A stretch of DNA of 64,000 nt from Terriglobia bacterium (GTDB lineage Bacteria; Acidobacteriota; Terriglobia; Acidiferrales; UBA7541), in contig JAIQGG010000005.1 in assembly GCA_020072785.1 (NCBI GenBank), positions 118,181 through 182,180 of the forward strand, given 5' to 3'. This document shows, piece by piece, positions 52,242-57,654 of this stretch (the first letter of the stretch is position 1; every line of letters starts with the position of its first letter). The translations under genes were made by a program, and so were the position numbers. The notes beneath the pieces were generated by a model, which worked only from the letters and a program-made list of their open reading frames with translations, was not told where the DNA came from and did no database searches.

Positions 52242-52269
52242 TTGTAGTGATAATTCTTTCTTATATTAT
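52242..52269 (+). promoter_or_regulatory. Predicted promoter of the ilvDBNC operon
   Basis: TTGTAG (52242-52247), 16 nt, TATTAT (52264-52269), within a strikingly A/T-rich patch in otherwise GC-rich DNA. Transcription from about 52276 would give a leader of about 300 nt before ilvD, containing the leader peptide and attenuator. Confidence 0.55.
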
Positions 52270-52342
52270 AGGCAATAATTATTAATTGGACTGATTCGCC
52301 CCTTCCCTCGCATTCTGGTAACGTCTTTGGCGTACTCCATCT

Positions 52343-52462
52343 ATGGTCGCCAGCGCGTACGAATCGAAGCCACGAGTGTCCGGCACAGCCGGGAGCGCGA
52401 TTCGTGTAGTCGTGCGAATTCGCCCCATTCCTGGAAGCGCGCGCGGAGACAGCGGCGGGTGA
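52343..52462 (+). CDS. Predicted Ile/Val-rich leader peptide of the ilv operon
   Basis: A 39-codon reading frame beginning ATG GTC GCC and ending TGA at 52460-52462. Residues 20-29 read IRVVVRIRPI: six branched-chain codons in ten. Starved ribosomes would stall there. The stop codon lies inside the predicted antiterminator arm (52457-52466), so a ribosome that finishes the peptide masks that arm. No clear Shine-Dalgarno site precedes the ATG, the main weakness. A GTG at 52376 could be an alternative start and keeps the Ile/Val run. Confidence 0.6.
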   Translation: MVASAYESKPRVSGTAGSAIRVVVRIRPIPGSARGDSGG

Positions 52463-52527
52463 TGGCAGCCTAGGAGAGAAATTCAAGCAAGACCCGGGGC
52501 CATCATCCAGAGCTGGATGATGGCCCC
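52457..52527 (+). terminator. Transcription attenuator of the ilv operon
   Basis: The terminator-like hairpin spans 52496-52527: GGGGCCATCATCC with its complement GGATGATGGCCCC, about 14 bp with a small loop, followed by GCAAATTTTC. The competing antiterminator is GGGTGATGGC (52457-52466) pairing with GCCATCATCC (52499-52508), ten pairs including one G-U, which uses the 5' arm of the terminator. The two structures exclude each other. The T run is short. The ilvD start is 50 nt downstream. Confidence 0.65.
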
Positions 52528-52576
52528 GCAAATTTTCGGGGCCGCGCAGTTCGCCGCGAGCCATGAGGAGCGAGAA

Positions 52577-54322
52577 GTGAGCAATCCCCTACCCAGACCC
52601 CGGAGCAGCGCGCTGACCGACGGGGCGCACCGCGCCGCGGCGCGGGCCATGCTGCGAGCCACGGGTTTGCGCGACGAGGATCTTGCGCGGCCGCTCATCG
52701 GCATCGCGAACACGTGGACCGAGATCGGTCCCTGCAACTACCACTTGAAAGAACTTGCGGAGCACGTCAAGGCGGGCGTCCGGGCCGCGGGCGGCACCCC
52801 GCTGGAATTCAACACCGTATCCATTTCCGACGGCATCACCATGGGCAGCGAAGGGATGCGCACGTCGCTGGTGAGCCGCGAGGTGATCGCGGACTCGATC
52901 GAGCTGGTGACGCGCGGCAACCTGCTGGACGCGCTGGTAGTGCTGGTGGGCTGCGACAAAACGATTCCGGGCGGGGTGATGGCGCTGGCGCGGCTGGACA
53001 TTCCCGGGCTGATTCTCTACGGCGGATCCATCGCGCCGGGACAGTTTCACGAACGTCCGGTGACGATCCAGGACGTTTTCGAAGCGATCGGCGCGCATGC
53101 GCGAGGCGGCATGTCGGACGAGGATCTGCATGCCCTGGAGTGTTCCGCGTGCCCGGGCGCGGGAGCGTGCGGGGGACAGTTCACGGCCAACACCATGGCG
53201 CTGGTGTGCGAATTCCTGGGGATTGCGCCCATGGGGCTTTCGAGCATTCCGGCCACGAACAAAACCAAGGAGACGGCGGGGCACAAGGCGGGCGAGATGG
53301 TGATCGAGCTGCTGCGCCGCGACGTGCGGCCCAGCGCCATTATCACTCCGAAGTCACTGGAAAACGCGATTGCGGGGGTGGCCGCAACGGGCGGCTCGAC
53401 CAACGCCGTGCTGCATCTGCTGGCCATCGCCCAGGAAACGCAGCTGCCGCTGGTGATCGACGATTTCGACCGCATTAGCGCGCGTACACCGCTGCTGGCG
53501 GACCTCAAGCCGGGCGGGCGTTTTGTGGCCACAGACCTGTACGCAGCGGGCGGCACGGCGCTGGTGGCGCAGCGGCTGCGCCAGGCGGGTCTGCTGCACG
53601 GCGAATGCCTCACCGTGACGGGAAAGAGCATCGGAGAAGAAGCAGCCGCGGCGAAAGAGACACCGGGCCAGGAAGTGGTGCTCCCGGCGGCCAAGCCGAT
53701 CAAGCCCACGGGCGGGCTGGTGATTCTGAAGGGCAACCTTGCGCCGGAAGGCTGCGTGGTGAAAGTGGCGGGGCACAACATCCAGGAGTTCCGCGGGCCG
53801 GCGCGGGTGTTCGACAGCGAAGAAGCGTCGTTCGCGGCGCTGCAACAGGGCGGAATTCGCGCGGGCGACGTGGTGGTGATCCGCTACGAGGGACCGAACG
53901 GCGGACCCGGAATGCGCGAGATGCTGGCGGTGACCGCGGCGCTGGTGGGAGCGGGGCTGGGCGACAGCGTGGCGCTGCTTACCGACGGGCGCTTCTCCGG
54001 AGCGACGCACGGACTGATGGCCGGGCATGTGGCGCCGGAAGCGGCGACGGGCGGACCGATCGCGGCGCTGCGCGACGGGGACATGGTGGTGTTCGACATT
54101 CCGAAGCGGGCGTTGCGCGCCGAGGTTTCCGAAGACGAGCTGCGCGAGCGGCTGCGCAGCTGGACGCCGCCAGCGCCGCGCTATACCAGCGGAGTGATGG
54201 CGAAATACGCGCTGCTGGTCTCCTCCGCATCGCGCGGAGCGATCACCACGGTGCCTGCCGGGGTACGTTCCTTGTCCGCGCCGTCGCCTGCAACGACACC
54301 GCTTCCGGCGAGGACGATATGA
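52577..54322 (+). CDS. ilvD: Dihydroxy-acid dehydratase
   Basis: Dehydrates 2,3-dihydroxy-isovalerate and -methylvalerate to the 2-oxoacids in valine and isoleucine synthesis; an Fe-S enzyme of the cytoplasm. It has 581 residues from the GTG at 52577, which has GAGGAG 6 nt upstream; an in-frame ATG at 52517 lies inside the attenuator hairpin and is not used. The three cluster cysteines are visible as C53 (GPCNYH), C126 (GCDKTIPGG) and C198 (GAGACGGQ). The ATGA overlap with ilvB indicates coupling. Confidence 0.95.
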
Positions 54323-56028
54323 AACGAACAGGCGCGGAAATTCTCTGTGAAACGCTGCACCGCCTGGGGGTGAAGGACATTTTCGGGTACCCCGGCGGAG
54401 CGATTCTGCCGACCTATGATGCGCTGGGCCGCTCGCCGCTGCACCACGTGCTGGTGCGGCACGAACAGGGTGCGACGCATATGGCCGACGGCTATGCGCG
54501 AGCGAGCGGAGGAGTGGGCGTGGCCATGGCCACGTCGGGCCCCGGAGCGACGAACATGGTCACGGGGATCGCCACGGCCATGCTGGATTCTTCGCCGGTG
54601 GTGTGCATCACCGGGCAGGTGAGCAGCAAGCTGCTGGGAAGCGATGCGTTTCAGGAGATCGACATCACGGGCATCACCATGCCCATCACCAAGCACAACT
54701 CGATTGTGTCGCGCGCGGAGGACATCGCGCGGACAGTGCGCGAAGCATTCGTCATCGCGGCGTCGGGCCGGCCGGGACCCGTGCTGGTGGACGTCACGAA
54801 AGACGCGCAGCAGGGGACATGCGAGCTGGACTGGGAGGCCGCCACACCGAAGCTGCCGCCGAAGCGGGTGCACCCGGCGTGCGAAGCGAGCGAATTTGCC
54901 CGGGCCGTGGAGATGCTGAACTCCGCGAAACGGCCGGTAATTCTGGCGGGACACGGGGTGCAGATTGCAGGCGCGGTGCGCGCACTGGAAGCATTCGTGC
55001 GCCGCGGACACTTCCCCGTGGCCATGACGCTGCTGGGGATCGGAACGTTTCCGGCCACCGATCCGTTGAATCTGGGGATGATGGGCATGCACGGGGAAGC
55101 CTGGGTGAACCGCGCGGTGCAGGAATCCGACCTGATCGTGGCCGTGGGGATGCGCTTCGACGACCGCGTCACCGGAGACCTGCGCACGTATGCGACGAGC
55201 GCCCGGAAGATTCACATCGAGATCGACCGCTCGGAGATCAACAAGAACGTGAAGGTCGACGCGGCGCTGGTGGGCGACGCGCGCGAACTGCTGGAGCAAC
55301 TGCTTCCCTGCCTGGAGCCGCGCGATCGCAGCGAATGGGTGGACTACATCCGCACGCTGAAGGGCCATTCCGCGGTGCGCGACATTCAGAGCCTGCCGGA
55401 CAGCGGGCATCTCTATGCGGCGCACGTGATCAACGATTTGTGGAAGGAAACGAAGGGGCGTGCGCTGGTGGTCAGCGACGTCGGGCAGCACCAGATGTGG
55501 GAGGCGCAGTATTACCACCACGACCGGCCGCGTTCGCTGATCACCTCGGGCGGTCTGGGGACGATGGGGTTTGCCCTGCCGGCGGCGATCGGGGCGAAAT
55601 TCGCGAAACCGGACGACGAGGTTTGGGTGGTGGTGGGCGACGGCGGGTTCCAGATGACCATGTGCGAACTGGCGACGATCGTGCAGGAGAAAATCAACGT
55701 CAAGATCGCCATCATCAACAACGGCTACCTGGGTATGGTGCGGCAGTGGCAGGAGTTTTTCTACGACAAGCGTTACGTGGCTACTCCGCTGGTGGCCCCG
55801 GATTTCTGCGCGCTGGCCAATGCCTTCGGAATCCGCAGCGAGAAGATCTGCACGCGCGGCGAAGTGCTTCCGGCGATCCGCAAGGCACGGGAAGCAGCAG
55901 AGACGGTTCTGCTGGACTTCCGGGTGGAACAGGAAGACGCGGTGTATCCGATGGTGCCGGCGGGCGCGGCGCTGCACGAAATGATCCGGCGACCGAACCC
56001 GCTGGTGGAAACCGCGACGGAGCCGTGA
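54319..56028 (+). CDS. ilvB: Acetolactate synthase, large catalytic subunit
   Basis: Condenses two pyruvates, or pyruvate and 2-oxobutyrate, to acetohydroxy acids with TPP and FAD. The 569-residue protein has E49 in [17 protein letters not shown], the FAD/quinone-binding SGPGATN segment, and the TPP/Mg motif starting GDGGF at 440. The start at 54319 overlaps the ilvD stop; the much longer open frame upstream is ilvD read in another frame. Its regulatory partner ilvN begins 7 nt downstream. Confidence 0.95.

Positions 56029-57654
<1,626 letters not shown>

Follow-up and report, generated by a model that had tools for sequence, protein, structure and literature searches.

A probable ribosome-mediated attenuator before ilvDBNC in an acidobacterium, and a family of similar leaders across the phylum

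In Proteobacteria and Actinobacteria, leader-peptide attenuation is a well-documented form of control. Is the ilvDBNC operon of a Terriglobia bacterium, a soil member of the Acidobacteriota, controlled by its leader in the same way? The question was raised by an original prediction made on a stretch of DNA of 64,000 nucleotides (hereafter, the window), which sits on contig 5 of a 3.73-Mb genome (G000) whose nearest relative in our search was G007. We found no description of an acidobacterial amino-acid attenuator in the literature searched, which was mostly outside subscription journals, and in a survey of 2010 almost no predicted acidobacterial attenuators had functions (PMC2965389). From the analysis reported here we conclude, with a probability of about 0.9, that the ilvDBNC leader works as a transcription attenuator mediated by the ribosome, and that it is the local copy of a module which serves several amino acids across the Acidobacteriota. 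The principle of attenuation is already known; what is new here is the phylum-wide family and the placing of stop codons in two frames.

Anatomy of the ilvD leader

All features described in the window are on the + strand. The leader frame (52343-52462) opens with ATG at 52343 and is closed after 39 codons by TGA 52460-52462. Its translation, MVASAYESKPRVSGTAGSAIRVVVRIRPIPGSARGDSGG, has Ile or Val at I20, V22, V23, V24, I26 and I29, and direct reading and a script agreed that this frame, with six Ile/Val codons in residues 20-29, had been predicted exactly to the base. Six Ile/Val in ten codons had a probability of P = 0.0004 in base shuffles of the leader stretch. The TGA lies inside GGGTGATGGC (strand 2, 52457-52466), which forms, as claimed, a helix of 10 bp, G-U at one position, with GCCATCATCC (52499-52508). 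These last bases also belong to strand 3 (52495-52509), the 5′ arm of a terminator hairpin of 15 bp with loop GAGC, whose 3′ arm, strand 4 (52514-52528), is followed by CAAATTTTCGGG. The hairpin had been placed at 52496-52527, 50 nt before ilvD; it is present, with one more pair at its base (52495-52528), and the ilvD GTG is at 52577, with a gap of 48 nt.

The first gene, ilvD (dihydroxy-acid dehydratase, 52577-54322), was identified from its ORF and homologues, and its GTG start has GAGGAG upstream. It is followed closely by ilvB (acetolactate synthase large subunit, 54319-56028), the start of which overlaps the ilvD end, and by ilvN (acetolactate synthase small subunit, 56036-56569) and ilvC (ketol-acid reductoisomerase, 56608-57654), both ORFs annotated from sequence.

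The two weak points conceded from the outset are real: the leader ATG is not preceded by a Shine-Dalgarno site, and the T run in CAAATTTTCGGG is poor. A terminator scan scored the hairpin on the opposite strand only. Folding also gave a second hairpin, GGCCCCG-CAAATTTT-CGGGGCC (52522-52543), which overlaps the terminator 3′ arm; its stem is a perfect 7 bp, it absorbs the T run, and it was seen only in G000 and G007. Because the T run is poor and this second hairpin overlaps the terminator, termination may be leaky in the window genome. Weak T runs in G000 and G007 would also suit a leader that senses the ribosome and acts on translation or via Rho, instead of an intrinsic terminator, as could be imagined from mycobacterial cys leaders, which have runs of Cys codons without terminators (PMC1262725). 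We hold this to be very unlikely, however, as a good T run follows the hairpin in most relatives, and the ilvD Shine-Dalgarno site lies outside the hairpin and is not covered by it.

Upstream from the leader, an extended -10 element, TGG-TAACGT (52316-52324), was recognised by alignment to the promoter common to the genus, which consists of ATTAATTTGACTGATTGACTT, a 17 nt spacer and TGnTA. Compared to this genus promoter the window -35 is degenerate and poor, and a promoter scan of the window did not find a sigma-70 consensus. Transcription is predicted to start around 52331, which would leave some 12 nt as 5′ UTR. A start downstream of 52466 had been named as the observation that would tell against attenuation; the predicted promoter is instead 5′ of the leader, and is kept in relatives. 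A short 5′ hairpin GGCG/CGCC, whose loop holds the start codon of the leader, can be read at 52329-52351, and relatives carry a counterpart (GGCGAT..ATG..ATCGCC). Finally, an inverted repeat TTAT-N10-ATAA is located 5′ of the promoter (52261-52278). A TTAT/TTAA-N9-11-ATAA-like match is present in 19 of 31 genus leaders, and the repeat is possibly a site for a LysR-type regulator.

Folding and the predicted order of events

The energies of the isolated helices are -15.9 kcal/mol for the antiterminator and -30.8 kcal/mol for the terminator. With the polymerase at 52513, when strand 4 is still unmade, folding gave the antiterminator a probability near 1, with or without the upstream sequence. Once strand 4 was made, the equilibrium preferred the terminator, and when the RNA was covered to 52475 the terminator alone could form. 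Folding with the leader stop occluded or free was a check proposed along with the original prediction, and both outcomes agree with it. Since the finished terminator is much more stable than the antiterminator, the choice between the two must be kinetic.

The events may then be ordered as follows. Transcription would start near 52331, and the ribosome would enter the leader very close to the 5′ end of the RNA. If Ile-tRNA or Val-tRNA were short, it would stall at codons 20-29 and leave strand 2 free while strand 3 is made, so that the antiterminator would form first and the polymerase would enter ilvD. If amino acids were plentiful, the ribosome would reach the TGA in strand 2 and cover that strand, strand 3 would pair with strand 4, and transcription would end.

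Attenuators of this kind have a short frame with control codons for the amino acid of the operon, an intrinsic terminator 5′ of the first structural gene, and an antiterminator that excludes the terminator and that a ribosome on the stop codon of the leader can cover. All three are found here, the translation of the frame being predicted, the T run being weak in the window, and mutual exclusion following from pairing and geometry. The strand 1 of classical four-strand, trp-type leaders, which blocks the antiterminator when there is no translation, was absent from our predictions: folding of the window, genus and phylum leaders yielded no competing strand that sequesters strand 2. With 125 nt of upstream sequence, genus leaders had a median antiterminator probability of 0.95 and phylum leaders one of 0.76 (the window itself gave about 1), and it is because the antiterminator core stays likely despite this upstream sequence that no general strand 1 was found. 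In our model, it is the ribosome on the stop codon that would do the job of hiding strand 2.

Some genus leaders (e.g. L029, L045 and L032) have a small hairpin after the control codons and just 5′ of strand 2, GUUCCC-GUAA-GGGGGAC or GUCCUC-GUAG-GAGGAC. It is possibly an RNA polymerase pause signal.

Conservation, covariation and control codons

The ilvD gene was matched in 34 of 36 genus genomes, and the same arrangement precedes it in 31 of the 33 genus upstream regions examined. A covariance model built from 31 genus leaders (R1) found the module with E≤1e-11 in 31 of the 36 genomes. It is absent before ilvD in G021 (L028) and G002 (L055), and strand 2 is decayed in G034 and G035 (L049 and L050). 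Genus leaders vary in sequence, but the frame is preserved, as are Ile/Val runs (for instance RIVYPIVVRNIPVPV) and a stop within GGATGATGGC. Among 29 distinct genus leaders, Ile and Val together amounted to 6.6 per 30 codons in the leader frame, versus 1.5 and 1.6 in the other frames, so that the conservation of Ile/Val codons expected in relatives was indeed observed. The leader frame was open in 28 of the 29, the other frames in 17 and 7. Close genus pairs displayed no excess of synonymous changes in the leader (32 synonymous, 80 non-synonymous), and selection therefore seems to bear on codon content and stop position, not on the peptide. In the genus alignment, 94% of the cells of the terminator stem are paired (0 of 500 shuffles were as high), and four of its pairs have changed on both sides. 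The attenuation reading is thus supported by the retention in relatives of the frame, the overlap of stop and strand 2, the terminator and the upstream promoter. Covariation of the antiterminator is weak within the genus, where the strands hardly vary; they are too invariant for such an analysis, and the phylum set was therefore used.

Upstream of ilvD, R1 matched nine other acidobacterial loci in the genome_contigs collection, from groups including gp1, gp6 and Vicinamibacterales. A second covariance model (R2, 38 sequences), in which the antiterminator pairs were left outside the model, matched with E≤1e-4 in 55 of 396 sampled phylum genomes, belonging to 34 genera and with at most five sites per genome, a count that exceeds that of true sites because some of the weak hits (E of about 1e-4 to 1e-6) are plain terminators. 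The module is thus spread over many acidobacterial families besides that of the window genome. Strong R2 sites mostly precede ilv, leu, thr and cys genes. Outside the phylum, a small sample of 24 genomes searched through their loci gave 0 matches at E≤1e-4. Hits of E around 1e-4 to 1e-6 in one family (e.g. G104, G127, G218) stand behind other genes, look like plain terminators, and were rejected.

Strand 2 covaries with strand 3 throughout the Acidobacteriota, which is the compensatory change that had been proposed as a check in relatives. In 75 phylum leaders, the eight positions of the antiterminator core paired in 554 of 600 cells, compared to 529.0 +/- 2.6 (0 of 5000) when strand 3 was redealt among leaders, a null that leaves relatedness in the shuffles, with models that favour consensus-like sequences. 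Under the same null, the flank (three bases 5′ of GGATGA and three bases 3′ of strand 3) paired in 122 of 225 cells, compared to 90.6 +/- 5.9 (0 of 5000). After thinning to 66 leaders of both sets, at least 45% divergent, the core still gave 491 of 528 versus 467.2 +/- 2.4 (0 of 2000), and the flank 89 of 198 versus 73.3 +/- 5.3 (6 of 2000).

The genes behind the sites include ilvD, ilvB, ilvN, ilvC, ilvA, citramalate synthase (cimA), leuA, homoserine dehydrogenase, aspartokinase, cysM, the siroheme synthase N-terminal domain, prephenate dehydratase, glutamate synthase and LysR-type regulators, and the leader codons follow the gene. In the last 22 leader residues, Ile and Val make up 33% in the ilv class (41 leaders), Thr 27% in the homoserine dehydrogenase/aspartokinase class (10 leaders), Cys 29% in the sulfur loci (three loci) and Leu 32% in a single leuA leader, fractions that are descriptive because frames were assigned by reading within each class. 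Examples are VRACACPCCCPACCRRQDVVYG in a cysM leader and the run TTTTTT in an aspartokinase leader. The module is compact and widely shared, and its amino-acid specificity appears to change by re-coding between operons, which makes it possible to trace the evolution of attenuators within one family. For organisms that are difficult to cultivate, the model predicts regulons for Ile/Val, Leu, Thr and Cys.

Several leaders deserve mention by themselves. Cys-rich leaders with the common terminator module were found at L247, L248, L249 and L223; two of them precede genes for cysteine synthase and a siroheme synthase domain, and one is near a JAB-domain gene. Val-rich leaders precede prephenate dehydratase genes (L191, L194, L232), for which Val is not the amino acid that would be expected. 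The window's own genome has a second copy of the module (G000:C2:638611-638702; L215 / L259 7889-8623), with a Leu/Ile-rich leader, before a LysR-type gene, and the module is also found before LysR genes in other members of the phylum (L186, L199, L225).

These data bear on two further explanations of the ilvD leader. The hairpin might be an ordinary terminator or structural element beside which the leader frame is incidental: palindromic hairpins are common between genes, plain terminators account for several weak hits of the models away from amino-acid genes, and the T run of the window is weak. We regard it as highly improbable, since it leaves the open frame, the position of the stop, the gene-class codons and the covariation of strands 2 and 3 without a reason. 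A riboswitch for an unknown ligand, or a T-box, might use the same terminator, an intrinsic terminator 5′ of a biosynthetic operon being what such elements would also present. This we find hardly credible, because no Rfam covariance model, of the T-box or of any other cis-regulator, matched the window or twelve related loci, and because the conserved part is short and specificity resides in codons that differ by operon.

A frame overlapping the leader stop, and comparison with known systems

An ATG or GTG overlaps the leader stop and opens a second frame, which in the window is GTG ATG GCA GCC TAG (52459-52473), closed within four codons. Closure within seven codons was scored for 26 of 29 genus leaders and 45 of 75 phylum leaders, the other two frames giving 2-6 (Fisher P 9e-10 to 8e-12), an excess that ascertainment may inflate, as the models include some mini-frame sequence, and that is explained in part by about ten leaders (e.g. 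...GMM*) in which the overlapping frame is the leader's own. In the thinned set, it was closed in 45 of 66 leaders, versus 8 and 7 for the others. Neither the type of this second stop nor its position is fixed (MMAA*, MMA*, MM*, MR*, MTL*).

Possibly, the mini-frame stops restarting or -1-slipping ribosomes before the terminator, and holds the ribosome on strand 2. We tentatively propose, at somewhat less than even odds, that the Acidobacteriota leaders are one interchangeable cassette in which strand 2 is a "double stop": the UGA, the overlapping AUG restart and the second stop would hold the ribosome, in place of an anti-antiterminator hairpin. The ribosome would be held on strand 2 and kept off the terminator. 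In E. coli, holding more ribosomes on leader stop codons leads to more attenuation (PMC5373646), and the proximity of ribosomes represses a terminator (PMC4824070). A rival to the double stop, which leaves attenuation itself untouched, is that the closed frame is a trap for ribosomes slipping to -1 at starved codons. It is the -1 frame and the sole one to be closed, and some leaders use it as their own, all of which fits a trap; the ATG or GTG overlapping the stop suggests re-initiation as well, and sequence cannot separate the two. We consider the trap, taken as the explanation, less likely than not. The double stop, if functional, would be a new way of timing the ribosome on RNA.

Enterobacterial trp, ilv, leu, thr and his leaders are of the classical four-strand type. 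The acidobacterial leaders resemble them in having a short leader peptide with many residues of the amino acid under control, the ribosome position as sensor, and mutually exclusive antiterminator and terminator. The comparison with enterobacterial ilv, drawn in the original prediction, is thus right as a likeness of principle, not as a tested homology of parts. They differ by the stop codon placed inside strand 2, by a 5′ UTR that is probably very short and devoid of a Shine-Dalgarno site, by a strand-2/terminator sequence common to different amino acids, and, according to the folding predictions, by having no detected strand 1 to hide strand 2.

The ilvBNC leader of Corynebacterium glutamicum, for which a three-hairpin model was proposed, also has branched-chain codons, bases common to antiterminator and terminator, and kinetic competition, and it has an anti-antiterminator hairpin, H1 (PMC11857589). 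In contrast, our predictions for the acidobacterial leader include no H1, and a ribosome on the stop codon would take its role. Actinobacterial trp attenuators and cys leader frames (PMC1262725) were, like the present family, found by comparison, with Cys-rich leaders before cys genes. Whereas the mycobacterial cys leaders are without conserved terminator hairpins (PMC1262725), Cys leaders of Acidobacteriota come with the terminator module shared by the family.
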